Part shown: positions 246 through 33,980 of the stretch, one piece after another | Layout: the number at the start of each line of letters is the position of its first letter | Position numbering within the stretch: position 1 is the stretch's first letter | Assembly (NCBI GenBank): GCA_030747675.1 | Contig: JASLKH010000050.1 | Span: 1 to 45,768 of the forward strand | Direction: 5' to 3' | Source: Candidatus Thalassarchaeaceae archaeon | Lineage (GTDB): Archaea; Thermoplasmatota; Poseidoniia; Poseidoniales; Thalassarchaeaceae | Length of the DNA stretch: 45,768 nucleotides | The notes under the pieces: generated by a model | Database searches by the model: none | Told to the model about the DNA's origin: nothing | What the model saw: only the letters and a program-made list of their open reading frames with translations | Translations under genes and position numbers: made by a program

Positions 246-3200
246 TTATTGTTCATCGGGGACCCATTTACTTTGTTCCGAATCCCATACCCAACCAGGA
301 TAGCCCTGAACTGCAGGTTGAGCTACTTGGGTAGTTGGTTGCGGTGCGGCTGCTTCTGCTTGAGGTGCGACTACTGTCTCACCTGACGTTGCAAGGTTTT
401 GCCCTTGCTTGGCCCAAGCATATGGATCAACTTCCACATCAGGTTCAATATCTTCGTCAGGGTAATCCTCGAATTCAACAAAGAAGAAGACGAATACACC
501 AACTAATGCCCCAATGCCAAGTAAAACAAGAACAATGATCACGATTGTCATAATTAGGCTTGACTCCTCGTCCGCACTGCCCAACTGAACAGTCGAATCT
601 TCGTTTGAAGGTTGAACTTCGCCATCATATTCGAAAACAATTTTGTTGCTACCTGATTCAAACCTGTTTGCAGGGATTTCGATTGACCAAGTTGAATCTT
701 GCTCGACTTTAGTATTTCCAAGGCGGAGGCCTCCCGAGGTTTCGGCAATGACTACTTGATCAGGTCGCCCAGTGCCACTATAAATCAGTGTATCTGATTT
801 TGAAATTTGTTCTGGACAACCGGCAGTATATTCTCCATTATCATCCCTCAATCCTGTGCAAACTGACGTGAATGCGACTCCAACAACATCAATGTCTAGA
901 GGGAAAGAAAATGCCTTTTGATTATACGTGTCTTTCGCTACAAACACAACGTTTTCCAATGTCCAATTACTCATCAGACATTGCTGCATGATCAAACACA
1001 TATTCAATGGGTTGTAATTTACCATACCTGTGGAAGAAATTAACACAACTTGGAAGTGTGAATCATCAGAACTCTGTTCTAAGTCTTGGACATACCATGT
1101 CAACCCACTCAGGCCATTGTCGTCACTGAAATATTGACTCAAGTCGATAGATACACCATCTCCACATTGGTCACCCGAGCCAACTGTTGAACCACCAGTT
1201 TGTACATCGCAATATGCGGTGATACTTCCTGGCCAAGCAGTTCCATTGAATGTAGGAATTTCATCATCTTGGTTTGGCGGATTATTGATGATTATTTCTA
1301 CTTCTGCGGCATCACTGTAATCAAATCCATCGAAGGAACGGGTTTGCACAATATAGTGCCCATTGTGTGACAATGTGCGTGTATCCCAACTAGTTTCCCA
1401 AATACCAGTGACATCATCAATTTGAGAACGTACTACTAATGAGTGGGGACCTTCAGGGACAGCAAGATACCCATCTGGACCTGGAGCTTGCATATCTAAT
1501 ATGGATATTTCAACCCGTGTAACGTCGCCGTCTGTGTCAACTGCACGTCCTCGAATTAGGGTATCGGAAGCAACTGTGATTGTCTGTCCTTCATATGGCG
1601 CAAGTAATTGGATTTGAGGTAAATCATTGTCATTATCAACATAAATTGAGATTTCGACAGGAGTACACTCGTCAACCACGAATTGGCAAAAGGCAGAATC
1701 ACTAGCCCATATTTTCAGGTCATAAGTTCCACTTGGAAGGGGAGCCACTGACCATTCAGCATTCCAATTCTGTGAACCTGGTTTTGAGAATGTATTCGAG
1801 TAACCATTCGGCTGTTGTACAGTCGCAGGGCCACTAACTTGGAACCATATTTCTTGAATATCGCTACCGAAATTTCCGTTATATGAATCAGAAGCTGTTC
1901 CACTAAATGTTACTAAACCATTTGATATCACTGTGTTATTTGTTGGTGTACTGAGCGTCAAAGTTGGAGGTTCGATATTCAACTTGATTTTGCGAGTGAC
2001 AACTGGCGAATAGTCAATACCATCAAATGAGCGGAATTGGAAAGTATAATCATTTTCTGGCCGATCACTCATGTCATACTCAAAATACCAATTTCGGAAT
2101 GGATGATTATTGTAAGTGACATCACTACCTGCGCCACTACTATCGGTGGCAAGTTTCATGTCAATCCAATCACTGGTGAATGGGTCCTTTACCTGTACTT
2201 CTTCAACAACTCCTCTCTGATCCCATTGTGCCAGAGTGTTTCGTTCAGATTGACTCATTCCATCATGACCATAAATTCCAGCCCAGATGCCATCATGTGC
2301 TGAACCTGTGAAATTTACTGTTCGTTTGAAAGAGTGCCCATCGTTCTGAGAAACAGTAATGCTAGGTTCCAAATTCTCCAATGAAATAATTTCTGAAAGC
2401 ACTCCAGTCTGACTCGTCATATTGATGCTATATCTCTTGTAGCCCTTTCCAAACTTGTAAGCTGTTACGTAGTAACGTGACATTTCTCTACTGGATGCAC
2501 CATTTTGGCAATCAGGGTCATCATTATCGAACAGAACATCGCCATCATTGTCCATGCCATCACTGCAAGAGTTTTCACCAGGATCATCAGCGTGGCGGTC
2601 TGGATTTGTCCCTCCGGGTCCGCCACCAGTCATATCCAAGTGGAAATCACTTGGCATCGATACTTCAGATGTCCATCCTTGGTCATTGGTGGTTAGGGAA
2701 TAAAGATCGTTACCACGGGCATCTTCAATCAATACGTCTGCACCACCAACACGTATTCCTGACACGAGAGTTCTGAATTTGACAATCTCCGCCTTACGGA
2801 TTTGTACAGCCCACTTAATGGGTGATGTGTCGATATAGATGTTGGATGTATCCACGCCTGTCAAGTTTGCAAATGTGAACACAGTTGAATTGTTTGTGAG
2901 CGACATTGCGAGCGGGAAATCTTGTGGCGGCCATACGCTACAAGTTGGTACCAAAACTTGTCCACCCCAATTATTCCAACTATATGCTTCAGCATCTGGC
3001 CAGGCTAATTTCACTGGATTAGTTTCATTGGACGCCGCATTTGGACTTGGGATGTTCTCCGATTGAACTGTAATACTACTCTTGGTTGCATTGTAGGTCT
3101 GTCCAACATTCTGCCAAGTATTCATTGAAAAGAATCCAAGGGTACCATATTCAGGTTGACCCTCGTAATTTGTATCGTGATTTTTGACTAAAGCCCCGGT

Positions 3201-4706
3201 CCCTGTAGCATTAAAGATATTATTTCGGACGTCAAGAATGGCTCCAATTGCCCGGATTCCGTCTCCTCCTCCACCGACTGAAATATCGTTATTCATTAGA
3301 GTAAGAGATGAACGGAAGGCATGTACTGCTGGACAAGGGAAATCACCACCCCATGCTTTCACACTGTTGCAAGTGTTTCCGTCGCTTTGTAGAATGGAAT
3401 TATGGACATGCATTCGATTCTTGGTGGGGTAAGGCACACTCCATCCACTATCCCCATAGTGGTACTCACCTGCAACAATTGGTTCTTTGGCTGTACCTGT
3501 AATTGATACTGAATCCACGGTGACATCACTTTCGCCAATTGACCAGATTCCATTCCAACCACCAATAGGGCCAATGGTCCCTCCAGTGATTGAGACGGTT
3601 GAGTCAGAAATTTGCATACCTGAACTTCCAGATGCACCTTCTGCACGGTTATTGTTGAAATCAACCCAAGCTCGATTGAATGCAGTCAATGGAGATCTTT
3701 CATCCGTTACCACATCGTTGTTTTCAACTATCAATTTGTAATCGACATTGTTGACTGTTTTCCTATTGTTGACGTCAATTCCATTGCAAGATGTTTCTAT
3801 TTGCCCATGTTTGATCTCACCAGCAGAATCATCGAATCGCATACCAAAATCACCAGACGCGATCGTAGCATGAGTTACTTCGACAAACGATTTCTCAGCC
3901 CATAGGACGTGGCGACCACCATCTTGTTCCCCACAACCCTTGTCGGTTCCAGTGAATACTGGGGCTGAAACCTTCAATGGATTTAGCGCACTTCCTGCAC
4001 CATATGCTTGAATAGCCGAACCTACAAGACTTGACTCGTCATCACCAGTAACGAATTCGCCTCCCAGAATTTCTGGACTAGCCAAGTCAAGAATTAGTAG
4101 GCTAGTTGTATTAACGCCTTCAAATTTCAGTCCAGTAAGTGTAGGGCTTGCGCCATCAAGGACTAATGCACCATATCGAACCTCTTGGATATCGGTCACA
4201 TATGTTGGTATCCCGTATGCATTCGTGATTGATACGTGATTGAATTTGGTGTAACCAATATCTACTGTATTTCGGATTAAAATTCCTTCATAGCAAGATG
4301 GATCTCGATTCCAATGTGCATTGTTAAAAATACCATAACAACTTCCGATTGCCTGAGGGTCTGCTGGATCCTGCCAATTGAATGTTACACGGCTGCTATT
4401 ACTGGCCATTCCATTGGCACCACATGCAACGTCTCCTGCACACAAGGCGCCTCGAACGTCGATGTATGTACCATTTGGAATTGTAACAGTAGTACCTGGT
4501 TGAACAATCAATTTTGCACCAGGTGGGATGATTACATCACCTGTTAAAGTGTGGCTTCCGGACCACACTTCTGTACCTGAAATTGTTCCGGCACTTGTTT
4601 CATTCGCTGCTGTAGCAGTAGGCATCATTCCAACGAGGCCTACCATTACACTAGTGAACATCAAGATTGACAGCATTAAACTCTTGTTTCGACGAGAATT
4701 TTTCAT
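246..4706 (-). CDS. Very large exported surface protein: signal peptide, right-handed parallel beta-helix-like N-terminal half, Ig-like repeats, C-terminal TM and short cytoplasmic tail
   Basis: ORF 246..4799; likely start at 4706 (MKNSRRNKSLMLSILMFTSVMVGLVGMMPTATA signal). Repetitive GTEVWSGSHTLTGDVIIPPGAKLIVQPGTTVTI; CSDGMDNDGDVLFDNDDPDC acidic motif; repeated Ig-like 'PPTLTLSTPTNNTVISNGLVTFSGTA'; TM 'SLIMTIVIIVLVLLGIGALVGVFVFFFV'. Confidence 0.85.
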   Translation of the reverse strand: MKNSRRNKSLMLSILMFTSVMVGLVGMMPTATAANETSAGTISGTEVWSGSHTLTGDVIIPPGAKLIVQPGTTVTIPNGTYIDVRGALCAGDVACGANGMASNSSRVTFNWQDPADPQAIGSCYGIFNNAHWNRDPSCYEGILIRNTVDIGYTKFNHVSITNAYGIPTYVTDIQEVRYGALVLDGASPTLTGLKFEGVNTTSLLILDLASPEILGGEFVTGDDESSLVGSAIQAYGAGSALNPLKVSAPVFTGTDKGCGEQDGGRHVLWAEKSFVEVTHATIASGDFGMRFDDSAGEIKHGQIETSCNGIDVNNRKTVNNVDYKLIVENNDVVTDERSPLTAFNRAWVDFNNNRAEGASGSSGMQISDSTVSITGGTIGPIGGWNGIWSIGESDVTVDSVSITGTAKEPIVAGEYHYGDSGWSVPYPTKNRMHVHNSILQSDGNTCNSVKAWGGDFPCPAVHAFRSSLTLMNNDISVGGGGDGIRAIGAILDVRNNIFNATGTGALVKNHDTNYEGQPEYGTLGFFSMNTWQNVGQTYNATKSSITVQSENIPSPNAASNETNPVKLAWPDAEAYSWNNWGGQVLVPTCSVWPPQDFPLAMSLTNNSTVFTFANLTGVDTSNIYIDTSPIKWAVQIRKAEIVKFRTLVSGIRVGGADVLIEDARGNDLYSLTTNDQGWTSEVSMPSDFHLDMTGGGPGGTNPDRHADDPGENSCSDGMDNDGDVLFDNDDPDCQNGASSREMSRYYVTAYKFGKGYKRYSINMTSQTGVLSEIISLENLEPSITVSQNDGHSFKRTVNFTGSAHDGIWAGIYGHDGMSQSERNTLAQWDQRGVVEEVQVKDPFTSDWIDMKLATDSSGAGSDVTYNNHPFRNWYFEYDMSDRPENDYTFQFRSFDGIDYSPVVTRKIKLNIEPPTLTLSTPTNNTVISNGLVTFSGTASDSYNGNFGSDIQEIWFQVSGPATVQQPNGYSNTFSKPGSQNWNAEWSVAPLPSGTYDLKIWASDSAFCQFVVDECTPVEISIYVDNDNDLPQIQLLAPYEGQTITVASDTLIRGRAVDTDGDVTRVEISILDMQAPGPDGYLAVPEGPHSLVVRSQIDDVTGIWETSWDTRTLSHNGHYIVQTRSFDGFDYSDAAEVEIIINNPPNQDDEIPTFNGTAWPGSITAYCDVQTGGSTVGSGDQCGDGVSIDLSQYFSDDNGLSGLTWYVQDLEQSSDDSHFQVVLISSTGMVNYNPLNMCLIMQQCLMSNWTLENVVFVAKDTYNQKAFSFPLDIDVVGVAFTSVCTGLRDDNGEYTAGCPEQISKSDTLIYSGTGRPDQVVIAETSGGLRLGNTKVEQDSTWSIEIPANRFESGSNKIVFEYDGEVQPSNEDSTVQLGSADEESSLIMTIVIIVLVLLGIGALVGVFVFFFVEFEDYPDEDIEPDVEVDPYAWAKQGQNLATSGETVVAPQAEAAAPQPTTQVAQPAVQGYPGWVWDSEQSKWVPDEQ

Positions 4707-4823
4707 AGTTCCACTTCCTAAGTTCAGACTCGGGAGAGTTACAAGGGCTATAACAGCAACGGCGTCGTGGCACAACGTTTTAGAGCATAAAAATATCAAA
4801 TAATTATTATTGTATCAATAATT

Positions 4824-4840
4824 AGTATCATTTTGATACT
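4824..4840. promoter_or_regulatory. Inverted repeat AGTATCA-TTT-TGATACT in an AT-rich intergenic gap; possible operator for the downstream minus-strand surface-protein gene
   Basis: Perfect 7-nt arms, 3-nt spacer; additional GTATCA copy at 4812-4817. Lies between the S8 protease stop and the 1517-aa ORF. Confidence 0.35.
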
Positions 4841-6165
4841 TAAATATCGCCACGTATTGCGATTTCATCAGCTACAGCCCGTTCCCAAGTCAGAGCGTTG
4901 AGCGTTCCGTACCCGTATCTCGAGTGATGTGGCTGTCCTTGCAGTGCATCAGAATCACAGGAGTCTGCTAATGCGCGTTTCACCAAATCAATGTCATCTC
5001 GATCTGCATTCATCCCATTTCGGGTCAAAGCATCCCCATGCCGTTCCAATATTAAGGCAAGTGCACCCACGACAAATACAGTGGAATCACTGGTACCCGT
5101 GCTCTCAGAATACGGAACCGTTAGACTAGAATCAGATGTCGAGATTATTGCAACTCCCGGGGCGCTAACTTCGGGCTTTTGATTTGGATATTCACGTAAT
5201 TCGCCGCCTGAAATATCTGTTTCGGAGCCTTCAGCAGTTTGTTCCCAGAATATTCCACTTTCATCAATAGACCCAACAGCAATTACGCCAGCAACATTTG
5301 CTGGGACCGAAACATCAGTTACAGTAGAATCGGGGCCACCTGAATTACCCGCTGCAGCAACTACGAATACGCCATGATCAAGGGCATCGGACACGGCAGA
5401 TGCTGTTTGTGAACCCAATGGGTTATCGGGATTAGGGTCCCCACCCAGTGACAAACTGATGATGTGTGCATCCACATCCCTCCAACACCAATTAATTGCA
5501 TTTGCAATTACTGCTTCCGAACTACTTTGCCCATTTTTATCCAAAGCCGCTGCAACAAACAAATCCACATTTGGGGCGGCTCCGGTGAATTTTCCTTGTG
5601 CAACAAGAATGCCTGCCATCATCGTCCCGTGTTTGTCATCACCTCTATCTTGAATTGTGCCGTCAGCATTCGAGATGAAGTCTTTGTAACGGACCAATCG
5701 GACTTCTTCAAAATCAGGATGGTCTATGTCTATTCCTGTATCCACTATGCATACACGGATGCCTTCACCTGTGAGTCCATATTCATCTTGTAAAGTGTAA
5801 ATTTCAGAGTTTTCATATGCCCATTTGGAATCAGGTGTTAACGCATCAGCGAAGAAGCCAACTAATGATGGATAACTCAAGAACATGCCTGAAATTATAA
5901 CCAAAACCGTCAACATTCCCCACGGCTTTGGACCATCATCACGGACATTTTGAGCGGTCATTTTCCTCCATTCCTCTGCTTGCTCTGCTGTCGCACCGTA
6001 ATCTTCAGGAGGGTATCCTGGTGCATCTGCATCAATGGCAGTCAGCATCTGAGGCTCTTCCGGCTCAGGAAGATATTCCAAATGCTCGTAGGGGCCTCGG
6101 GGCATGTTAACAGGTATGAGGGATCGAATAGGGTACATCTTCCCTTCGTGTACTCCAACTCGCAT
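4840..6165 (-). CDS. Membrane-anchored subtilisin-like serine protease (S8 family)
   Basis: Asp box VCIVDTGIDIDHPDF, His box HGTMMAGILVA, oxyanion Asn VVAAAGNSGG, Ser box ESTGTSDSTVFVVGALAL; N-terminal TM segment WGMLTVLVIISGMFLSYPSLVGFF. Confidence 0.9.
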   Translation of the reverse strand: MRVGVHEGKMYPIRSLIPVNMPRGPYEHLEYLPEPEEPQMLTAIDADAPGYPPEDYGATAEQAEEWRKMTAQNVRDDGPKPWGMLTVLVIISGMFLSYPSLVGFFADALTPDSKWAYENSEIYTLQDEYGLTGEGIRVCIVDTGIDIDHPDFEEVRLVRYKDFISNADGTIQDRGDDKHGTMMAGILVAQGKFTGAAPNVDLFVAAALDKNGQSSSEAVIANAINWCWRDVDAHIISLSLGGDPNPDNPLGSQTASAVSDALDHGVFVVAAAGNSGGPDSTVTDVSVPANVAGVIAVGSIDESGIFWEQTAEGSETDISGGELREYPNQKPEVSAPGVAIISTSDSSLTVPYSESTGTSDSTVFVVGALALILERHGDALTRNGMNADRDDIDLVKRALADSCDSDALQGQPHHSRYGYGTLNALTWERAVADEIAIRGDI

Positions 6166-6195: not shown

Positions 6196-9100
6196 TCAGA
6201 ACGGTTGTGCTCCACGACGACCACTGAACTTCACAAACATGTAGATAATCCCTACAAACAAAAGAAGAACAACGATGCCCAGTATAAAGCTAGCCTCCTC
6301 TGGGGCTTCCTTCTGAATATTAACAGCGAATGTGACGTCATCTGGTTCACTAACTACTTGGAACCCAGTGGTGTTAATATGCAAAACGAAATTTTCACTC
6401 CCAATACCATATGGTGCAGTGTTAACAATAATTTCGAAGGATTCAGTTACACCCTTTGCGACAGGGAGGGCCTTAGAACCGACCACATCCCCGGATGCAT
6501 TCAAAATTTCTACAACGACATTGGCGGCATCAACATCACCACTGTTCTCAACATTCACAAAGAATGTGTTGTCAGAATCGGCAGCAGCGAAACCACTCTT
6601 TGAAGTATCTACGACACCCCAGTCATCTATCGAAAGGTCAGGCAATGCCGTCTTAATCTTAATCTCAAATGGTGCATAACTGGTATTATCCTTACTAGTT
6701 ACTGTAATCCATACACTAAACGACGTGTCTGGAGCATTTGTAGGCGAGTGGATGTTCAAGGAGTACATTTGTGCTGAGGATGCACCAACTGGTACGGAAA
6801 CAGCCCCCTGTACACTCCAACCTTCCAACTCAGGTGTATCGGGTATTGCACCAATCTCAAAGAAATACTGATCATCTCCATTTCCTGTGTTCTTGATTAT
6901 AAATTCATATTGATCATCAGAACCGGGTATAATTCCAAATTCTTCTGTAATGTCACTAACAACTTCAAATCCGTAAGTTTGAGGTACGCGTAGAGTTAAT
7001 TCATATTCACTGTGTGAACCATCAGAATTGGTCATTTTTATCTTCAAAGAATGTCCAAAGCTGTAAGATTGTGCCAGAGTTTGATTTGCAGGAACAATTC
7101 TCATCATTACTGTCGTTTCATTCGCCGGTGAGCCAATCCCCATAGTGTATGTACGAGTTGTTTCCCATACTTCAGCACCAGTCTCATTGGTACCATTATA
7201 GAATACTACTGTCCAATATTCTGCATCTCCACCATTGATTAATGCAGATACCGTGAATTCATCAACTGCCTGATTCCCAGTATAGTTCACAATAACCGGA
7301 ATGTCGGCTATCAAGAATTCTTCGTTTTCACCAGCAATAATCGTGAATTCATCAGTGTCGGTAGTAGATTGAGTGACATTGACGAAATTGTCACCTATTG
7401 CAAACATGACTGAATGATCAAATCTTCGATTGAAATTGACCACATAGTCGGGAGATTCAATACCCCCTCCAACAACCTCTGCAGAAAGGCCTCCAGAATA
7501 TGACATCTCCATTGCTTGCTCCATAGTGGTGAAGCTGGCTTCAACAGAATAGTCTCCAGCAGGCAGCAATAAATTGAGTGAGCCATTTGCATCAACTGTC
7601 TCGTTCCAACGCATAGTCAAACCATTTGCCATGATTAAATCAGTTGGGTTGCTAATTAGAGTCGTGTCTGACAAGTTGCGTTCAACACCGTCGAAATCAA
7701 TCCATGAGGTTTCAAGATTCAATATGCTTGCAGTGGAAAGTGTCACATTTAGTTCTCCGCCATCTGCAATTTCGGCATTCACCAACTCCATAGCAGCAAA
7801 CTTTCCTTCATTTCCGTCATAAGTCACATGCAAAACCCAAGCCCCAGGTTCTACTACTGCGGACCATGTGCCATTCCAAGTCCCATTATCAAGAACCTTC
7901 GTTGCAGACAATGATGTTCTTGCAAGTCCTGATTCAGGTAGTAAAGTAATCTCCACATCATCCGAAATTAGATTCCACTCGCTCGGAAGTGAATGAGTAA
8001 TCATTCCGCCAATCGTGACAACTCCGGCATCCATTTCCATGTCACTTGAATTTGCAGTATATCCAACCTCTATTACTGTCGAGCTTGGGCTGTATCCTTC
8101 ACGGATCGCATTTACAGTATAATTGTCACTAGTCGGGACAAATACGCTCCAAGTACCCATATTATTACTGGTCAAATTAACTGGTCCAAATGAGGGACCT
8201 GTTACTGTAACATTTGCATCGGCTATTCCTTCACCGAGATTCCACAAATCATCATTATTCAAATCCCAGAACAAATTACCTGCAATCTCAACCCACTTGT
8301 CCAATGTGATATTGACATCTGCATTTGCAGCAGCACCGGCGCTAACTGTAATTGTGTAATTCTCAAGTATCCATCGCAAATTACTGTCTGTCCGATTAAG
8401 CGAAAGTGTCCAATCTCCAGGCATTAATCGGGCTTCAATCAATCCATTTTCGTCACTGGGCCCTACTTCAAATACATCCCCAGGACGATCATCGCTGTTT
8501 GCTATGAGAGTAAAGCCACTTAATGTGGTATTACTTCCACTTTCGGATATTGAAAGATTAAATTGAGCCGATTCAGTTGTAGTCCAAACAATTCCCGATT
8601 GTTCACTGTCAATGATGATACTACCACGGTATTCTTGTGGGACATTATCTTCAGTACCATCATCTTGGATGAACCTATCGACAATAACAAACCATTCGCC
8701 TTCTGCGATATAATCAACTATTGTTCCGTTGGAATCGGTAAGTAGTGAGAAACTACGAACGCCATCAATTTCTTCAAAGTCAACGGTCCAGTTCTCCAAT
8801 GGTACATTCAACTGGTTTTCAAGCAAAATTGATGTGTGCCATTGAGGAATAAATCCGATATTTACTTCAGTACTCTCATTACCAATTAATACCGAAAATT
8901 TGCTATCTGTATTTACTGCACCAAAAGATTCGTCGCCATCGTCTAATACAGATATTATTGTACTAAATGATGTTGAGTTTGCAGGATCACTTGGATCTAG
9001 TGTAGGTGTTTCAAATATCCAATCACCAGCCTGAAGATTCATGCTAATACTACCATTGTCCCATCCTGCGTCATCCGCACTTACATTGACGGTGTACCCC

Positions 9101-12100
9101 GTCATTGAACCAATTTGAATCAAAGTGAATTCAATTGCTTGTGTTGTGCCATTGCTTACATTGCCATCAAGTGAATGATCAATGAATGGAGTCAATGTAA
9201 CATTAACTGCGTCAGGTGAGGCGATTAATGTCAGAGTGTTATTATCTGCCCCTGCTACTGAATAGTTCAATGGTTCTACATTCAGAATATCTTCATTAAT
9301 GCCGAATACCCAATTCGAGGTTTCATTATCAATCACGTAAGATACGAAATGACCATTTTGGTCAACAGGCCAATGCCAGGTAACACCTGTTTCCTCATGG
9401 TATGTTTCCAGTACGAATGGGTGTTGCCCATAACCCGGTACTTGGGAATCGTAACGACGGCCAACTTCATACAAGAATAGGTCACCTGATGCACCCCATG
9501 TGGTTTGAGGCATTAGCGGTTCACTGAGATTTTCTTCGCCTACAATGAAATGTTTGCCAATCATACGATTACCAACAATAACATGGATTGTCAGGTTCAC
9601 TTCAGCACCAAGAGGTAACTGGAATGAGAAACTTCCATTGTCATCAGTCATGGTGTCTTCAGTGATTCCACCCCATTGCACCATCACCATTTGATTCTTG
9701 TAGGGTTCAAGTTCTGTTGTTTTGTCATCGACGGGTTCATACATCACAGTACCATTGACCCATTCAGATTCAACATAATTCAGTTCAAGGTCAATGATGT
9801 CATCCTGTTCAATGAGGATTTCCTCGTACAGGATACTGTCCTCATCGAGTAAACTTGTAGCAACCCATTCACCGGTAGCCAGTTCAATGTTGTATGAACC
9901 ATTTCCATTATCTCTTGCATCAAATGAAATTGGAGCAAATTGATTAGTGAAGGTGATATTCATTCCAGAAACCAAATTCCCATTTGGACCCTTCACAGTA
10001 AATTCAACATCGTACATTGGAGGAATCATGTTAATATTGTCAGGTGTGACATTTCCAGCATTATCTGAAGTCACAATGATTGGGGATGAACGATATTCAT
10101 CAAATCCATCTTGATCCATGTCCATTGTAACAACATATTCACCTTCAAGTACGGGTCCAATTCCGAATCCGCCATCAGCACTAGTTTCAACGTAGCAAGG
10201 TGCCCAAGCAACTTCACCGCATGGCGCTGAAGCATCTTCATCTGGGGTTTCAGAATTGACTAAGTTCACACGGCCCGTAATTGCATCTCCACCCATGCTA
10301 TTTGCTTCACCCTGAATCCATGTACCCAAGAGTGTTAGTTCGATATTTTTCGCAGCAGGACTTTCCTTAGACAACGGAACTTCAAGCGGCATATGTAGAA
10401 CTGCTTCTTCTCCATTCTCAAACAATACTGCAACGTGATACTTGCCCGGAATTGCATCAACCAAATGGAACGAACCTGGGCTAACCATATCGCCACTGAA
10501 TTGGCCAGTTCCTTGGAATACACCTGTACCATTGATTGTACCATAAGACGTCAGAGATTCATCGGATGTATCCACGACAAATACGCCTGCACCAATGATA
10601 GTTTCACGATAAAGTGCAGTTGTAAACTGAGCAGTACCATTAGCTGTAAATCGACCACTAGCACCTTCAACGTGACCATCAATCAAATATGAGTCTGTAA
10701 CATTGGAATCAAGATTACAATATGTTGCATTTTCAGGCATAGTGCCATTGATACAAGTAAACGATGTAGCGTCTTCAATAGTACCAACAAATGTGCCTCG
10801 GCCATCGATGATACCCTCTCCTGTGAATGAATGGCCATTCAATATTGCACGAGTGAAATTACCTGTAAAGTCAGTCGCAGTTACCGTTCCTTCCGAAATC
10901 ATTGTTCCTGAACCAGTGAAGGTCACCTCTCCAGTTGCACTAGGGCCAAATTGACGCTCGCCCTCCACTTCTCCAGTTGAAGTGCGAATGATATATGGGT
11001 TCTGAGTAGTTTCATCCCAGATATTAGAAATTCGCAATTCCATGTTCGCTAGAGGCTGCTCACCAAAGTCGCCCTCTCCTTCCCAGAATATTGTCCCCGA
11101 TGCTCCACTAGCTTCGACGTTTACATCTGAATTCAACACAGCAACACCGTTCGAATGGCCATCTTCGCCATTCACAACTATTGTTGATTCTCCCAACCAA
11201 ATTGAACCTGATACATTCGCCAAAATACCTGTGATTGGGTTAACCTGGCGGTCTTGATTTGATTCAATTACTAAATCATCACCCCATGAATTTGCAATTT
11301 GCTGATCTGCTTGACGCATTGTATCACGAGCAGCGGTCAAATCCGAATCGCCTATGAAAGCAGATATACGAATTTTCCCAGAAGGAACTCGTACACTATA
11401 ATGTCCATTTTCATCTGCAACAGTTGTGGTTACTGGAATCCAATATGTTCGCTCATCTGAGTCGACGTCGTCTTCTCCACTGAATGCATCTCTTTCGATT
11501 AATATCTTAGCATTAGGAACAATGCCTACATCTCCGAGATTTACATCGCCTTCAAGAGTTGCACCTGAATAATATTTCAGAATCTTAACACCTGTATTGG
11601 CTGAAAGAAGTTCGTTTTGAGTTGCACCTGGAACATACCAATTAGCAAGTGCGAAATGAGGCATCATTGCACCAGGTAGTGGTTTTGCATATGTCAACGG
11701 TGTATCTGGGGTTCCAATGTAATATCGGGCATCCAGATGCTGAGCGGGTTGAGCAATTCGTTCATTAGTTGAATCCAAGCCTAATGAAGTACTTCCATAC
11801 CCTACATAAGTACGAGAAATCATGGTATTGAAGAAAGATTCTTGATGATCTACTCGCACATCAACTAACTCAATTATATCGCCACCAGTTCCAGATTGAC
11901 TAGCTAAGATATCATTCACATATTGTTCCTCGAACTCAAGACCAGTCATTTCTTGTTCTGGACGGTCGCCACGCTGTGTGATGTAAACGGTCTGAAGGTA
12001 ATTGTCTGGATCCAATCCACTCAATGTAGTAGGTGCATAGAAAATACCAGTTGGGTTACCACTGTGCAACCCTTGCTCGGCATATTGATATCCGCCAATT

Positions 12101-15100
12101 GGATACAATCGATTATCAACTGCAAAATAGCGAATATCATTATTTCTGACAACGGTTTCACCGGGTCCACTTTCAAAACTTGCAACTTCGTATTCCAATG
12201 CTGTCAAGTCATGGTACAACGATACCATTTCTTCCATCGAAAGCGCTGTGATCAGTACTTGGCGTGCAAAGGCAAATCGTGCATTCTGGCGATGTAAAGA
12301 TGTCGATACATCACCGAAATCATCGACTAAATCATTAGTGTACCAATAGTCTCCAATGATGTAATGTGTCGCTGAATCACTAAAACCATCGGCATCCCAA
12401 TCGACCTTGCTATTCAAGTCGAAACCAGCCTTTGCCTCTTCTAGAGTATCGTAAATTCCAATTAATTCTCGATTTTCATACAAACGATAACTTGTAGCAG
12501 ATTCCATAGTCCCATCACTTTGGATTTCGTGGCCCTCTGCAAGAACAACATCGTCAGCTGAACCAATAACGGAGTATGCACGGTCTGCGACTGCCGCCCC
12601 ATTCTCTAATTGAGTGACTGCGAGCCATTCATCCCAGCTTGCTTCATTTGGAAGGTGGCTGCGTAGTATGTTACCGAATTCTGCTGTAAAGCGTTCTCCA
12701 TCATCATCATCTGGGTCATCCATGGATTCATGGCGCATATCGCCCTCAGCCAATGTCATAATGAACAGAGCGAGTGTATCATGCTCGCCATCTGCAAGCA
12801 ACATATTACCTGCTGCTGGAATTCCAGATTGGAAATTGTCAGCAACTGTAGGGTGTTGCCCCTGTGCTAGTGCTTGGAACCCATAATCCCACCATGAAAC
12901 GAATGCCGGTCGTTGTGAGAAAGACTGATCGGAATCTTGATGCTCAAGCCAATCATATGCCTGATTCCAATATCGACCATTAAATCCAGGACCGAATGTA
13001 CCCATATACCAACACTGATTTTGTGTACTTTGGCATCGTGAAGTTGAATCTTCACCTACACCATAATCGACATAAGGTGAACCATCAAAAACCGACCATC
13101 CAAATAATTCTGCACGAAGTACGTCAGGCAGAATGTTGTGAATTGTATTATCCAACTCCTTCTCACCTGATTCCCCTCGAGGTATCCCTGAATCTAGACC
13201 ATAAACAGCATGCTGGCTGAATAACATCAGCATTACCATCAGGATAGCAGGTACAGCAGGGTGCTTTCGGCTTGCTCCTATTGTGGATCGAAGACGGGCC
13301 CCTGAACCTGAAACTCCTAATCGGCGCCATGTCTTCACGAATTCCTTAGTTCCACACCAGCGCCATAGGCCTGCAATAGATGCAGAACCCATAATTGCCA
13401 TAATTGGAGTTGCGTTGAACATAAATCGTCCAGCAGACCAAGCCATGTATGCTGCAATCAAAATCCAGACTGAAAGGACAAGGTCGATTTCTTTACGGTG
13501 ACGTAATCCGCGCCAAAGAGCGATTAATCCCATCCCTAATGCGAAAATGAATACAAGGGGACCGAAGTTTGCGAATAATTGGCCTCGGCTTGGCGCCTGA
13601 GCCTCCGCAATTGTTCCGAAAACCTTGTTCTTCGAGAAATAATATCCTCCAGTGAACAAAACATCCCATCCATTGTAAATGTCCAACATTTGTAACAAGT
13701 ATAGACTGAATAGTAAGAATCCAAACAATCCTCCACCCATTACAATAACCATCAACCATGGTTTATCGCGGAATGCTGTGACCACCCAACCGTTGATGAT
13801 AGTGAATCCAAGAATGTAAAACATAGGTTGGAATCCGCTTGCATCCCATATCAAATTCAATTCCATATTGCCGTAGAATGGCAAAGGAAGGAGGAAGGTG
13901 ACAAGCATCATCACAATTGCTGCCGAAGTCAACGGCATACTATCACGACGTCTTAGCAAATTCAAAGCAGTTTGAACAAAGAACGCTGCATAAATAATAG
14001 CCAAACCGTAAACGAATCCTTTCCATCCTAGTGCAACAGTTGCGAAGGAGACACCTGCTAGAATTGCATAAGACATAGCCTGTGCATGTTTCCTAAATGA
14101 TGCCTTTATTCCACTAAAAAGATGCGTTGGGTTCCAGTGTGAATCTGGTAACAATTTGTCATTACCAACTGTGTCTACTGCACATAACCAGAAATAGAAA
14201 CCAAGTGACATAAACAAAATAACAAATGCGTCGTGATCAGCTAATGCAAATGTGCTGTGGCTTACATGACCAGGCATTAGTGCCATTAGCCATGCGCTAA
14301 TTGCTCCTGCACCTGCACCAAAGAATCGACGGCAAGTAGCAGCAATTGGCAGAATAGTTAGAGCGCCATAAATTGCTGGCATTGCGGCGATTGACCACCA
14401 TGCGGCATCATATACATCACCGGCCAGGAATGGATCGAGGATCTTTCCGCCTAATGCCAATGACCAACTGAAAAGGGGTGGTCGTGGATTAATTGAACCA
14501 ACTGGGTACGAACGATCCATGTCGATAATAAAATGGCTATTTTGTGCCAAGATGTAATCGATTGCCCGCTTCATGTACCATGGATCAGACCCACCAGTCA
14601 TATCCCACTCACCTGTACCGTTTGCATTCATTGCAGGTATTACGTTCCACAGTGTTCGTACAACTAATGCTGCCAAGAGGGCTCCACCTACTGTGATTCC
14701 ATACCAATGCTTGGACCACCATTTAGCAGCCATTCCTGCTGTACGGCGTTCTGAGCCCTTGAGTAATTTCCCAGTGAAACCTGCCCACAATACAACTGAA
14801 TTCAGCCAGAAGAATATAGCAAACCAAGTAAGTGTGCCAAGACTACCCGTTAGGAAATTGTAACCACTGAGTCCAAACAAACCCATATCTTGCCATCCAC
14901 CAATACTGTACAGTATCCAGTTAATGCCAACAAGTCCTGCAAGTGTCCGCCAATGCTCAGCCCAACAATAGGCAACGAACAATGCGACAATACCTGTCAA
15001 GAATGCCCAAAAGAACCCAATTTGCTCTCCAAGGAAAATAGCATCTGGGTTCTCAAGACTGTGTAAGTGCCACAAACTGAAACCATGTGCAGCCGCCCAA

Positions 15101-15771
15101 ACGAAAAGGGCTGAAAGCAGTGGAATGCATTCTTTTCCAACCATCTCTGGTAAGTCCCTAAACCAACTTCCTTGACCTGGATTTTGCAAACGACCTCGCA
15201 TTGCTAGAGCTATTAACGCCCCCGTGACAATCGAAAGTACCCACCATGTGAAAAATAAGTACGCAGTTACCGAACGATCTATGTCAATCAGGCTATAATA
15301 GCCCCCTAATGTTCCTTCTGAAGACCATGCATGGCCTGCAGCAGCCACCTGAATTGCATACAAGAAACCGGCCACAATACCGACGAGGATGATTTCCTCT
15401 TCGTGGCGGTTTGCTCTATCAAAAATATGTACACCAATAGCCGTTATTGTAAAAACAAGTCCCAATAAAGCCGCTCCGTCGTAAATATGGAGCAAACCAA
15501 CGGCTCCAATTACAATTGCAAACCCTAGAGACACGAGAGAGGGGCGTGTTCCAACAGGTTCGAAGATAATACGTGGTGCTTTGCCAAGTAATCCACCGGC
15601 CAATAGCACGACGGTCATCATTAGCAATGTGTTCCATTCACTAGCTTCATAATCGACGTAATTCCAAGTAGCACCTACCATCATGGCTAGCATGATTGCA
15701 ATTGTCACAGGAATTGCTAGCAATCCATGCAGCGGATTGCTAGATGTCTCTGTTTCGTTTTTCTCATCCAT
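6196..15771 (-). CDS. aglB: AglB/STT3-family oligosaccharyltransferase with an extra N-terminal TM region and a giant C-terminal extracellular extension (3191 aa)
   Basis: SDPWY catalytic-Asp motif (14575..14589, S395-Y399), second acidic motif ALADHDAF, WWDYG signature (12880..12894, residue 960 on), AglB-like C-terminal segment VKILKYYSGATLEGDV; then about 1,700 residues of CarboxypepD_reg/Ig-like and CARDB-like repeats ending in TM 'ASFILGIVVLLLFVGIIYMFVKF'. Confidence 0.9.
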   Translation of the reverse strand: MDEKNETETSSNPLHGLLAIPVTIAIMLAMMVGATWNYVDYEASEWNTLLMMTVVLLAGGLLGKAPRIIFEPVGTRPSLVSLGFAIVIGAVGLLHIYDGAALLGLVFTITAIGVHIFDRANRHEEEIILVGIVAGFLYAIQVAAAGHAWSSEGTLGGYYSLIDIDRSVTAYLFFTWWVLSIVTGALIALAMRGRLQNPGQGSWFRDLPEMVGKECIPLLSALFVWAAAHGFSLWHLHSLENPDAIFLGEQIGFFWAFLTGIVALFVAYCWAEHWRTLAGLVGINWILYSIGGWQDMGLFGLSGYNFLTGSLGTLTWFAIFFWLNSVVLWAGFTGKLLKGSERRTAGMAAKWWSKHWYGITVGGALLAALVVRTLWNVIPAMNANGTGEWDMTGGSDPWYMKRAIDYILAQNSHFIIDMDRSYPVGSINPRPPLFSWSLALGGKILDPFLAGDVYDAAWWSIAAMPAIYGALTILPIAATCRRFFGAGAGAISAWLMALMPGHVSHSTFALADHDAFVILFMSLGFYFWLCAVDTVGNDKLLPDSHWNPTHLFSGIKASFRKHAQAMSYAILAGVSFATVALGWKGFVYGLAIIYAAFFVQTALNLLRRRDSMPLTSAAIVMMLVTFLLPLPFYGNMELNLIWDASGFQPMFYILGFTIINGWVVTAFRDKPWLMVIVMGGGLFGFLLFSLYLLQMLDIYNGWDVLFTGGYYFSKNKVFGTIAEAQAPSRGQLFANFGPLVFIFALGMGLIALWRGLRHRKEIDLVLSVWILIAAYMAWSAGRFMFNATPIMAIMGSASIAGLWRWCGTKEFVKTWRRLGVSGSGARLRSTIGASRKHPAVPAILMVMLMLFSQHAVYGLDSGIPRGESGEKELDNTIHNILPDVLRAELFGWSVFDGSPYVDYGVGEDSTSRCQSTQNQCWYMGTFGPGFNGRYWNQAYDWLEHQDSDQSFSQRPAFVSWWDYGFQALAQGQHPTVADNFQSGIPAAGNMLLADGEHDTLALFIMTLAEGDMRHESMDDPDDDDGERFTAEFGNILRSHLPNEASWDEWLAVTQLENGAAVADRAYSVIGSADDVVLAEGHEIQSDGTMESATSYRLYENRELIGIYDTLEEAKAGFDLNSKVDWDADGFSDSATHYIIGDYWYTNDLVDDFGDVSTSLHRQNARFAFARQVLITALSMEEMVSLYHDLTALEYEVASFESGPGETVVRNNDIRYFAVDNRLYPIGGYQYAEQGLHSGNPTGIFYAPTTLSGLDPDNYLQTVYITQRGDRPEQEMTGLEFEEQYVNDILASQSGTGGDIIELVDVRVDHQESFFNTMISRTYVGYGSTSLGLDSTNERIAQPAQHLDARYYIGTPDTPLTYAKPLPGAMMPHFALANWYVPGATQNELLSANTGVKILKYYSGATLEGDVNLGDVGIVPNAKILIERDAFSGEDDVDSDERTYWIPVTTTVADENGHYSVRVPSGKIRISAFIGDSDLTAARDTMRQADQQIANSWGDDLVIESNQDRQVNPITGILANVSGSIWLGESTIVVNGEDGHSNGVAVLNSDVNVEASGASGTIFWEGEGDFGEQPLANMELRISNIWDETTQNPYIIRTSTGEVEGERQFGPSATGEVTFTGSGTMISEGTVTATDFTGNFTRAILNGHSFTGEGIIDGRGTFVGTIEDATSFTCINGTMPENATYCNLDSNVTDSYLIDGHVEGASGRFTANGTAQFTTALYRETIIGAGVFVVDTSDESLTSYGTINGTGVFQGTGQFSGDMVSPGSFHLVDAIPGKYHVAVLFENGEEAVLHMPLEVPLSKESPAAKNIELTLLGTWIQGEANSMGGDAITGRVNLVNSETPDEDASAPCGEVAWAPCYVETSADGGFGIGPVLEGEYVVTMDMDQDGFDEYRSSPIIVTSDNAGNVTPDNINMIPPMYDVEFTVKGPNGNLVSGMNITFTNQFAPISFDARDNGNGSYNIELATGEWVATSLLDEDSILYEEILIEQDDIIDLELNYVESEWVNGTVMYEPVDDKTTELEPYKNQMVMVQWGGITEDTMTDDNGSFSFQLPLGAEVNLTIHVIVGNRMIGKHFIVGEENLSEPLMPQTTWGASGDLFLYEVGRRYDSQVPGYGQHPFVLETYHEETGVTWHWPVDQNGHFVSYVIDNETSNWVFGINEDILNVEPLNYSVAGADNNTLTLIASPDAVNVTLTPFIDHSLDGNVSNGTTQAIEFTLIQIGSMTGYTVNVSADDAGWDNGSISMNLQAGDWIFETPTLDPSDPANSTSFSTIISVLDDGDESFGAVNTDSKFSVLIGNESTEVNIGFIPQWHTSILLENQLNVPLENWTVDFEEIDGVRSFSLLTDSNGTIVDYIAEGEWFVIVDRFIQDDGTEDNVPQEYRGSIIIDSEQSGIVWTTTESAQFNLSISESGSNTTLSGFTLIANSDDRPGDVFEVGPSDENGLIEARLMPGDWTLSLNRTDSNLRWILENYTITVSAGAAANADVNITLDKWVEIAGNLFWDLNNDDLWNLGEGIADANVTVTGPSFGPVNLTSNNMGTWSVFVPTSDNYTVNAIREGYSPSSTVIEVGYTANSSDMEMDAGVVTIGGMITHSLPSEWNLISDDVEITLLPESGLARTSLSATKVLDNGTWNGTWSAVVEPGAWVLHVTYDGNEGKFAAMELVNAEIADGGELNVTLSTASILNLETSWIDFDGVERNLSDTTLISNPTDLIMANGLTMRWNETVDANGSLNLLLPAGDYSVEASFTTMEQAMEMSYSGGLSAEVVGGGIESPDYVVNFNRRFDHSVMFAIGDNFVNVTQSTTDTDEFTIIAGENEEFLIADIPVIVNYTGNQAVDEFTVSALINGGDAEYWTVVFYNGTNETGAEVWETTRTYTMGIGSPANETTVMMRIVPANQTLAQSYSFGHSLKIKMTNSDGSHSEYELTLRVPQTYGFEVVSDITEEFGIIPGSDDQYEFIIKNTGNGDDQYFFEIGAIPDTPELEGWSVQGAVSVPVGASSAQMYSLNIHSPTNAPDTSFSVWITVTSKDNTSYAPFEIKIKTALPDLSIDDWGVVDTSKSGFAAADSDNTFFVNVENSGDVDAANVVVEILNASGDVVGSKALPVAKGVTESFEIIVNTAPYGIGSENFVLHINTTGFQVVSEPDDVTFAVNIQKEAPEEASFILGIVVLLLFVGIIYMFVKFSGRRGAQPF

Positions 15772-15906: not shown

Positions 15907-17169
15907 TCAAAGTGCCCTATAACCAATATCTTGGCGGAAATGTGACCCCTCAAGATGGACCTCTGAAAGCTTCTGATATGCTAAATTACGAGCCTTTAGC
16001 AAAGTCCCAGATATTCCAGTTGCAGCAAGAACTCGTCCGCCACTTGAAATCAATTTCCCGTCCTGAAAAGTTGTTCCTGCATGGTGAATAAAAGCCCTTC
16101 CTTCAAGTCCAGTATATTGAGTGAAATCTCCAGTGATTTCTACTCCTTTGATAGGGGGACCTGGGTAACCTTCAGCAGCCAAAACAACAGTCATGGCAAA
16201 TGCATCATGAAATGTAGGTGTATTTTCGGCCAGCCTACCTTCTGCTACAGCCAGAAATAGGTCACATAAATCACTAGAAATTAGAGGGATTGTCACTTGG
16301 GTTTCAGGATCACCAAACCGGACATTAAATTCAACGACGGATGGGGCCCCATTTGAGTCAATCATTAATCCAACATACAAGCACCCTCTATATGGGACAT
16401 CTTGTGATGAAAGGTATTTGTGCATGGGTTCTACAATTTCTCTGATAGCACGATTACGGATAGATTCAGTCACAACAGGGGCGGGAGCATATGCGCCCAT
16501 TCCTCCAGTATTAAGGCCAGTGTCACCCTCTCCGACACGCTTGTGATCTTGGCTGCAAGGAAGGGGAACAAAACCTGATTCATCCATCATCACCAGCATA
16601 CTTGCTTCTTCCCCTGGGAGAAATTGTTCAAGTAAAACAAAACCATCAGAATCAATGGATTGAGTGATGAATTTTCTAGCCTCATCCAAATCTGCTGTTA
16701 CAACAACCCCCTTACCTCCAGCAAGTACATCCCGCTTCACTACCCATGGAGAACCGAATTTTTCGAGGGTGTCGTCAATGTTACTTTCAATATCTAATCG
16801 TGCTACTTCGGCTGTAGGGACTCCCAATTTCAGCATCGTTTCTTTGGCAAATGTTTTGCTTCCCTCCAGCATTGCACCAGTAGCATGTGGGCCAAAACAT
16901 GGAATCCCATCGGCGCGAAGTTTGTCTGCAAGTCCGTCCACTAAAGGTGCTTCTGGACCCACAATAACCAAATCTGCATTGAGTGCTTTTGCCAAATTAA
17001 CTTGGCCAATTACATCTCCCGCACTTACTTTGTGATTGGTTGCAATACTGGCTGTTCCAGCATTACCTGGAGCAACATGAACTAAGTCTACAGATGGACT
17101 TCCAATTAATCCAATAGCCAAGGCATGTTCTCTACCCCCACCACCAACGATGAGAACTGTCCGCCCCAT
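15907..17169 (-). CDS. purD: Phosphoribosylamine--glycine ligase (GAR synthetase)
   Basis: MGRTVLIVGGGGREHALAIGL; VVKRDVLAGGKGVVV; GEEASMLVMMD; VEFNVRFGDPETQV. ORF listed to 17187; MGRTVL start at 17169 preferred. Confidence 0.95.
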   Translation of the reverse strand: MGRTVLIVGGGGREHALAIGLIGSPSVDLVHVAPGNAGTASIATNHKVSAGDVIGQVNLAKALNADLVIVGPEAPLVDGLADKLRADGIPCFGPHATGAMLEGSKTFAKETMLKLGVPTAEVARLDIESNIDDTLEKFGSPWVVKRDVLAGGKGVVVTADLDEARKFITQSIDSDGFVLLEQFLPGEEASMLVMMDESGFVPLPCSQDHKRVGEGDTGLNTGGMGAYAPAPVVTESIRNRAIREIVEPMHKYLSSQDVPYRGCLYVGLMIDSNGAPSVVEFNVRFGDPETQVTIPLISSDLCDLFLAVAEGRLAENTPTFHDAFAMTVVLAAEGYPGPPIKGVEITGDFTQYTGLEGRAFIHHAGTTFQDGKLISSGGRVLAATGISGTLLKARNLAYQKLSEVHLEGSHFRQDIGYRAL

Positions 17170-17207
17170 GAGAGGCTCTAGGTACATCCAGCCTTTGAAG
17201 AATCGCT

Positions 17208-17867: not shown

Positions 17868-17951
17868 ATATTGTCTAGTAGGAATTAGGCTTTGAGAACT
17901 TGTGCTCTGGAAGCCGTAGCCTTCATGTTGTATATGCATCTAAGCAATGTC

Positions 17952-19796
17952 ATGGGAAGTAAATTGAATCTGCCTTTGCTAATGGCCGCACTGATGTTCA
18001 CAGGGTTAATTCCAATGAGTACTGCCAATTATGCACCTACAAATGGCGGACCTTATGCAGTTGATAGTGATGAAACATGGGACCAGGGTGGTTATCTCGA
18101 TGCACAAGTTGTAATTGAAGCGGGAGCGACCCTTACAATAACATCCAACATTATAGTCAAAGATGGAGCCTCAATAACAGTGAATGAGGGTGCTACGCTG
18201 AACGTTTCAGAGGGTGGACTTAGCGCTGAAAATGGGCCACACGCGGTTCGCCCCATCTCAATTTCAGACTCGTCGAGTTTACTCGTCGATTCCAGTGTAT
18301 CCACTGCTGGTTTTGCTTTGCGCATCATTTCTGCTGCAGATAATTCACTTGAAGGATGGACTGTGAGTTGGGACGATATTACTCCACAAGACATGAATGG
18401 AACCATGCACGAAATTAATTTCACTGCACCAAAAGAAGATTTTAGAATCTATTTTGACTTGCCACCTGGGAACTTAGGGGATCTTGTTATTGACCGATTG
18501 GAAGTTTTCGACATATCGACTTCAGCAACTCATATTACATACGCAACTGATGCTGCTCCAATAGACTGTTTCCTTGCAGGTGATGTTGGTTTCCCACTAA
18601 TCGTCAATGGGAATGCTCATTTTGAAAATAGTTTGATTGAAGGTTCAGAGATAACCATCACAGGTGACGTCACTACTGATAGTTCTGCCTTCAAATCATC
18701 AGGACCAGTAGTTGTTACAGGAGGAGATGCGAGTCTAATTATGTCAGAAGGATCAATTTCATTATCTCGAATGGATCATGACGTTCAACTCGATAGTGTT
18801 GCACAAATCATCTGGGGTGCTGCCAATGGTACAGGTGGATTAATTGATCGTTGGGAGCGTATTGTTCCTGAACAAATTATTCACATCCCTATTGACAACT
18901 TTGCTGCAGGATGCCCCTCAGGGGGATGCGTGCAGTACGATTACCATGGCCTGGGTAGCCCAAATGCAGGGAATACTGGGATTCGTGCACCTGACATTGA
19001 TGGTAATGCCATAGTCCCATCACGGACTGTCGAAATTGGATGGGCTGATAGTACAGATGTATGGAATGAAAATGGTTTTATCGAAATTAAGAAATTCCAA
19101 ATTGTCTGGAATCTTGACTCATCAATTGGATCTTGGAGTGAAGGTGAAATGGTTCCAATGCCCTATGATGTGGGGGTATTCAACATCCTTGAACATCTCG
19201 AATACCCCGTGATTTCAGTTGACTCCGTTGAACTGGAAAGTGATGTAGGTACAATAGGGGAATCAATGGATGTAGTCGTAACTGTATCAAATACTGGAAC
19301 TGCAGCTGCAGCTGTGGCAATTCTTTGCAATATTGCTGAAACTGGACAAAGTGCTGACATGACACCGCTTTATTCATCGATGACATTAGAGCGTGGAGAA
19401 ACTGATTCAATCGAGGCGCTTTGGTCCTATGGGGGTAGTGGAGATGCTAGTTTAGTTTGCTTTGTTAATGAACCCGCTCAATTACTTGATACAAGTGCAT
19501 TCATTACCAACCAAAATCAAACTGGGACTTATGGCGACTCAACGACTGTGGATTGGAGTAGCTCAGATGAAACCGAATTTGACTCTCTACTCATTGTAAT
19601 TACACTCATCATTGTAGTCATTGTATGCTTAGTTGCTGTAGTAAGAATGGCACAACAAGGTGCCTTCGATGACATCACCTCGGACGGTGATGGAGATGAG
19701 GGTGAGGACGAAATTTCCGATGGAAATGATGATGAAGGCGATGGAGAAAGTCGTGTGGACCGCTTCAAAGAATTACTACAGGGTGAAGAAGACTGA
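17952..19796 (+). CDS. Exported beta-helix-like surface protein with C-terminal TM and acidic cytoplasmic tail
   Basis: Signal MGSKLNLPLLMAALMFTGLIPMSTA; 'VVIEAGATLTITSNIIVKDGASITVNEGATLNV' repeats; TM 'SLLIVITLIIVVIVCLVAVV'; tail SDGDGDEGEDEISDGNDDEGDGE. Confidence 0.8.
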   Translation: MGSKLNLPLLMAALMFTGLIPMSTANYAPTNGGPYAVDSDETWDQGGYLDAQVVIEAGATLTITSNIIVKDGASITVNEGATLNVSEGGLSAENGPHAVRPISISDSSSLLVDSSVSTAGFALRIISAADNSLEGWTVSWDDITPQDMNGTMHEINFTAPKEDFRIYFDLPPGNLGDLVIDRLEVFDISTSATHITYATDAAPIDCFLAGDVGFPLIVNGNAHFENSLIEGSEITITGDVTTDSSAFKSSGPVVVTGGDASLIMSEGSISLSRMDHDVQLDSVAQIIWGAANGTGGLIDRWERIVPEQIIHIPIDNFAAGCPSGGCVQYDYHGLGSPNAGNTGIRAPDIDGNAIVPSRTVEIGWADSTDVWNENGFIEIKKFQIVWNLDSSIGSWSEGEMVPMPYDVGVFNILEHLEYPVISVDSVELESDVGTIGESMDVVVTVSNTGTAAAAVAILCNIAETGQSADMTPLYSSMTLERGETDSIEALWSYGGSGDASLVCFVNEPAQLLDTSAFITNQNQTGTYGDSTTVDWSSSDETEFDSLLIVITLIIVVIVCLVAVVRMAQQGAFDDITSDGDGDEGEDEISDGNDDEGDGESRVDRFKELLQGEED

Positions 19797-33903: not shown

Positions 33904-33952
33904 GCAACCTAATGAGGGTAGCGACTAAGGAGGAGTGGTCCTCACGCATGAG

Positions 33953-33971
33953 CGCAGGGCTATGCCCTGCG
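33953..33971. promoter_or_regulatory. Perfect 8-bp hairpin 9 nt upstream of the lamin-tail/PLD gene start
   Basis: CGCAGGGC-TAT-GCCCTGCG, then GTGGATGCA-ATG (33981). Confidence 0.45.
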
Positions 33972-33980
33972 GTGGATGCA

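Follow-up and report, generated by a model that had tools for sequence, protein, structure and literature searches.

Among solved structures, the nearest by sequence to the protein described here is the AglB of A. fulgidus (3waj), an oligosaccharyltransferase (OST) whose AglB-L form (3waj/3wak) measures about 870 aa. The two share the catalytic membrane core, the D396, DHD, TIxE and WWDYG motifs and an outward C-terminal domain, but the protein from our window adds a 10-TM N-terminal domain, a 1,760-residue beta-sandwich rod and a C-terminal transmembrane (TM) anchor, and is 3.6 times as long. The NCBIfam model TIGR04154 (archaeo_STT3, archaeosortase A system-associated OST), 831 aa in length and likewise without a rod, matches the window protein at 9e-51 with 173.2 bits, which is below its curated cut-off of 450, and is the best NCBIfam model for all 20 proteins that we chose to represent the phylum. 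For the rod, a described system of similar build is NOMO of the BOS complex in the ER multipass translocon, in which transthyretin-like domains stand in tandem and one TM helix closes the C-terminus; however, NOMO is not fused to STT3, and its similarity is common to unrelated surface proteins of the phylum. In the open-licence full-text literature, searched for AglB or oligosaccharyltransferase in Poseidoniales/Marine Group II and Thermoplasmata, for fusion and for self-glycosylation, we found no published description of an AglB-rod architecture. An oligosaccharyltransferase gene of the Poseidoniales genus O1, filed under lipid metabolism, is reported to be enriched in field metatranscriptomes when O1 is active (PMC9723583), and it may or may not be the giant AglB gene.

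The window, meaning the whole contig of 45,768 nucleotides that was analysed, belongs to a 1.68-Mb genome that is 78% complete. Its AglB-type oligosaccharyltransferase gene lies on the minus strand (15771-6199) as a single open frame of 3,191 aa, with an ATG at 15771 and a stop at 6198-6196; the initial annotation had correctly described a frame uninterrupted for 9.6 kb, leaving the strand unstated. It had also identified the product as AglB/STT3 by SDPWY, DHD and WWDYG, and indeed these lie at aa 395-399, 512-514 and 960-964, accompanied by TIAE and by a Pfam STT3 match. The roughly 340 residues of extra TM helices that it placed before the core prove to be 346 aa with 10 predicted TM helices, and the roughly 1,700 extra residues and final TM helix after the usual AglB C-terminal domain come to about 1,760 aa with a TM helix at 3162-3180. 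The features of the gene and its neighbours are as follows.

6196..15771, minus strand: AglB-type oligosaccharyltransferase, whole gene (Pfam STT3; TIGR04154; orthologues of 3,124-3,324 aa across the order)
14734..15771, minus strand: order-specific N-terminal domain, aa 1-346, 10 predicted TM helices (AlphaFold2 model; hydropathy in 19 orthologues)
13000..14733, minus strand: AglB/STT3 catalytic membrane region, aa 347-924 (Pfam STT3; A. fulgidus AglB 3waj; Foldseek 3wak, E 1.2e-9)
14575..14589, minus strand: SDPWY motif, aa 395-399, with catalytic Asp396 (Asp invariant in 20 phylum-wide proteins)
14230..14238, minus strand: DHD (DxD) motif, aa 512-514 (unchanged throughout the order, conserved to at least 90% among the phylum-wide proteins)
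13603..13614, minus strand: TIAE (TIxE) motif, aa 720-723 (T, I and E unchanged across the 20 phylum-wide proteins)
12880..12894, minus strand: WWDYG motif, aa 960-964 (invariant in 20 phylum-wide proteins)
11587..12999, minus strand: usual AglB extracellular C-terminal domain, aa 925-1395, sequon-poor (profile matches in short AglBs; sequon counts)
6307..11586, minus strand: giant all-beta extracellular extension, aa 1396-3155, acidic, 49 sequons (AlphaFold2 model; sequon counts; mirror-motif control)
8065..8235, minus strand: CarboxypepD_reg (transthyretin-like) domain, aa 2513-2569 (Pfam, E 3.9e-15)
6199..6306, minus strand: C-terminal TM anchor, aa 3162-3180, with basic tail, the whole being aa 3156-3191 (shared by every complete giant AglB examined, missing from the short clade)
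15907..17187, minus strand: purD, phosphoribosylglycinamide synthetase (Pfam, 9e-58; upstream neighbour of AglB, kept in 19 of 19 loci)
4840..6165, minus strand: S8 subtilase without signal peptide (Pfam, 1.2e-39; 30 bp downstream of AglB)
246..4799, minus strand: Big_7 surface protein, 1,517 aa (Pfam, 2.3e-9; second neighbour, kept in 17 of 19 loci)

Pfam STT3 (PF02516) matches aa 395-792 at 1e-14 (55.3 bits against a curated cut-off of 24.5), and an AlphaFold2 model of aa 1-1019, of moderate confidence (pLDDT 64.6, pTM 0.69), finds 3wak as its best Foldseek match (E 1.2e-9, prob 1.00). None of the catalytic residues varies among 19 orthologues, and very few do among the 20 phylum-wide proteins; with Asp396, DHD, TIxE and WWDYG conserved, the enzyme looks catalytically intact. 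The window genome contains a single STT3 match, the giant AglB alone, and while a second AglB may be missing from a genome that is 78% complete, more complete relatives likewise show one.

We compared the gene with 59 relatives, 54 of which had one STT3 match each. Complete AglB frames of 3,124-3,324 aa were present in 35 of these 54, from both families of the order, and the shorter frames whose contigs were examined end at contig ends, with which the class-wide set agrees. As the length stays within these bounds in dozens of independent genomes, an open frame of 9.6 kb is far beyond chance. The source is a fragmented MAG of 100 contigs, for which an assembly or gene-calling artefact joining separate genes has to be considered, but this explanation was rejected and we give it practically no remaining weight: the same single gene lies between conserved neighbours in independent genomes of both families. 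Separate genes for the AglB core and the rod were found in none of the close relatives, and the lone apparent split, in a closed genome (1,603 + 1,646 aa), is a run of N between the two halves. Neither objection foreseen in the initial annotation, mis-assembly or separate genes in close relatives, therefore holds, and the giant AglB frame is a real fusion rather than an assembly accident.

The surroundings of the gene are similarly constant. The order purD, AglB, S8 subtilase and Big_7 protein (about 1,500 aa), all on one strand, recurs in nearly all of 19 other Poseidoniales loci and was not found in the flanks of the AglB loci examined outside the order. The S8 subtilase follows AglB in the same place and on the same strand in 18 of the 19, and a protease so consistently placed invites the proposal that proteolysis of the finished chain yields an AglB of normal size and a surface glycoprotein with an anchor of its own, the last TM helix holding the released rod on the cell and the fusion serving co-production only. 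We regard such processing as improbable, since the subtilase lacks both a signal peptide and sequons, it is missing beside the giant AglBs outside Poseidoniales, and no processing site was identified.

At the other end of the protein, the first AglB helix (aa 347-381) comes after the ten predicted helices of aa 1-346, and because this number is even the N-terminus would stay in the cytosol. The N-terminal domain is present in 19 of 19 orthologues and diverges fast, with a mean column identity of 35%. It has no Pfam match and nothing notable in the PDB (best match E 0.044), and its profile matched nothing in the other families of the phylum. In the AglBs of two such families (f13 and f20) there is an N-terminal extension of about 8 TM helices, which differs from that of Poseidoniales; kinship between the two was considered and rejected (hhalign probability 0.3%). 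The ten-helix domain is thus an innovation of Poseidoniales. It may dock a partner of the pathway, and our guess would be the lipid-linked donor supply or the Sec translocon.

Profile comparison traces homology with ordinary AglB C-terminal domains as far as residue 1400 or so, and the extension beyond this point, which we call the rod, carries a net charge of about -205. For aa 1395-2575 AlphaFold2 predicts a chain of beta-sandwich domains, all beta (pLDDT 80.5). The earlier description of Ig, carboxypeptidase-regulatory and CARDB-like repeats is thus upheld for the CarboxypepD_reg domain (4e-15) and in the all-beta model, while the CARDB-like match near the C-terminus is weak (E 0.002).

The distribution of sequons separates the rod from the enzyme. 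Shuffling the window protein leads one to expect 20.9 N-X-S/T in the extension, where 49 are present (z 6.9), and 2.7 in the C-terminal catalytic domain, where there are 0. Over 19 orthologues the extension holds 773 sequons (342 expected) and the catalytic C-domain (aa 925-1395) 36 (77 expected), and slightly shifted boundaries give 778 against 349, a 2.2-fold enrichment, and 30 against 71, respectively. This enrichment is specific to the motif: within the same extensions N-X-S/T occurs 787 times and its mirror S/T-X-N 367 times, the corresponding Asp motifs are balanced (D-X-S/T 517, S/T-X-D 575), and there are only 4 N-P-S/T. Several sites recur in 15-17 of the 19 orthologues, for example those at positions such as 1532, 1675, 1747, 2207 and 2459 in 16-17. 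Within 0.8 Mb of the window genome, 48% of the total, the giant AglB ranks first among 577 ORFs by number of sequons and second by enrichment, whereas ORFs without TM helices in the same 0.8 Mb show no enrichment (599 against 605). Taken with its controls, the pattern shows a rod under selection to be N-glycosylated and, in Poseidoniales, an enzyme part under selection against it. A mild enrichment is seen in the genome's other secreted proteins too (553 against 416), so the rod would not be the sole substrate.

Two further frames of this genome, L153:3-2240 and L107:32-3229, are strongly enriched in sequons (z 7.1 and 6.4); they are probably incomplete surface proteins and are candidates for further AglB substrates.

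We favour, at a probability of roughly one half, an OST that carries its own main acceptor, namely an acidic, N-glycosylated surface rod anchored at both ends. Like that of other AglBs, the core would sit in the membrane and act at the outer face, while its C-terminal side would continue into some 1,760 residues of stacked beta-sandwich domains; since the rod would return to the membrane through the last TM helix, it would be held at both ends. With dense, conserved N-X-S/T and a strongly acidic composition the rod appears to be laid out as a target of glycosylation, next to a catalytic domain that avoids such sites, and AglB may glycosylate the rod that it carries, either in cis or between neighbouring copies. 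With one STT3 match per genome across Poseidoniales, AglB is the only candidate enzyme found for this modification, but the enrichment shows selection for the sites, not that AglB is the modifier of its own rod in cis. The glycosylated rods might then form part of a surface coat around the enzyme, a glycocalyx or pseudo-periplasmic scaffold. Taken to its full extent this would be a self-decorating coat, in which the sole OST is also the most sequon-laden surface glycoprotein and a single polypeptide, at once catalyst and principal substrate, makes up an envelope layer, a proposal that we offer only tentatively.

To place the fusion in a wider context we surveyed 243 genomes of Thermoplasmatota and examined domains and motifs in the 20 representative proteins. 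AglB frames measure 2,080-2,740 aa in many families, with anchored giants of this size in most of those sampled, including 2,317-2,360 aa in Marine Group III, and 920-1,430 aa in others; one further AglB (f17) appears short and is cut by a contig end. Giant AglBs of other Thermoplasmatota lineages (Marine Group III, DHVE2/Aciduliprofundum-like archaea, Methanomassiliicoccus and many MAGs) resemble the window protein in joining the core to a sequon-rich beta rod and a C-terminal TM helix, but they are shorter at 2,080-2,740 aa, mostly lack an N-terminal extension, and have a catalytic domain that is not sequon-poor. Indeed, sequons are enriched in these other giants (803 against 408 for the mirror motif), and the catalytic domain of AglBs outside Poseidoniales has 158 against 76, so that a general rule by which OST catalytic domains avoid sequons fails there and was rejected. 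All complete giant AglBs terminate in one TM helix and a basic tail, an ending that the shorter forms lack; CarboxypepD_reg domains are present in all 20 representatives, the short ones included. In a tree of the catalytic part the giants form one large group (94/95) that encloses a single short clade (f5, f16, f29, f34 and f40), which is probably a secondary reduction. The flanks of short AglBs yielded no match to the extension profile, and hence no separate rod gene. Among named records, giant AglBs occur in Marine Group III, DHVE2 and Methanomassiliicoccus, among others, and in one scan of such records the matches were attributable to Thermoplasmatota. The AglB-rod fusion is thus phylum-wide and old, and not peculiar to Poseidoniales.

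Several individual loci in this survey depart from the common plan. In the 2,743-aa AglB of one family (f26, L072) some six extra TM helices lie inside the catalytic membrane region or behind it, not before it. Some families (f15, f21 and f23; L090, L091, L093 and L094) encode a second AglB of about 920-980 aa, which is very divergent, branches deeply apart on a long stem and has neither rod nor sequons. In Marine Group III (L058 and L078) a second giant protein of 2,307 aa is encoded on the same strand about 1.2 kb downstream of AglB, and its C-terminal module is common to the giant AglB (E about 1e-36). A record titled Flavobacteriaceae bacterium TMED121 (L217, NHFW02000028.1) carries a Marine Group III-like AglB with 37% identity to the query and is probably a mis-binned contig.

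Two readings of the rod give its glycans a lesser part, and both seem to us rather unlikely. By the first, the rod is a spacer or adhesin that places the enzyme with respect to an S-layer or coat, or makes a surface fibre, and is glycosylated like any surface protein. The best Foldseek matches of the modelled extension, a streptococcal surface protease and beta-sandwich arrays of pilins and adhesins, are what this structural bookkeeping would predict, as is a length that varies within about 6% in Poseidoniales, as a ruler would require; moreover, the rod is dispensable, the C-terminal TM helix and most repeats being lost in the short clade. It leaves unexplained, however, why a sequon-depleted catalytic domain lies beside a doubly enriched rod and why the rod is anchored in the membrane at both ends.

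By the second, the rod is a scaffold for handling substrates, built like NOMO from stacked transthyretin-type domains, and would hold the OST beside the Sec channel or organise emerging chains, its own glycans merely stabilising it. Among PDB chains, the profile of the extension across the phylum has human NOMO2 as its top match (E 2.7e-34), far above any other. NOMO_5th Pfam matches occur in 9 of the 20 giant or related AglBs, and in a genome-wide search of 18 genomes 8 of 9 such matches at E <= 0.01 fell inside AglB, while ten control CarboxypepD_reg proteins gave none at 1e-5. Homology to NOMO thus looked strong, but a control profile built from these ten, all of them unrelated surface proteins from this phylum, likewise matches NOMO2 best (4e-19), and what we retain is a likeness at the level of the fold. 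Furthermore, the window genome has no NOMO_5th (PF23194) match at E <= 1, the window extension alone matches no PDB chain by sequence, and Foldseek favours the pilin and adhesin arrays. NOMO is therefore treated here as a likeness of build, not of kinship.

If the rod is indeed the main acceptor of its own enzyme, N-glycosylation in abundant ocean archaea and in most of their phylum would have enzyme and acceptor in one chain, and there would be a testable answer to the question of what covers cells whose envelopes are poorly known, with Methanomassiliicoccus and DHVE2 as named groups open to direct study. More generally, fusion can provide an OST with large accessory parts, in contrast to the separate subunits of eukaryotes.

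Other genes of the window are worth recording. A gene on the strand opposite to AglB (17892-19796, plus strand) evolves fast, with 24-44% identity, has no Pfam match, and holds a fixed upstream place in all Poseidoniales loci examined. A second S8 subtilase is encoded at 28384-30354 on the minus strand, and a secreted protein of 1,611 aa that combines several Lamin Tail Domains with a PLD-like (phospholipase D) domain at 33912-38747 on the plus strand.
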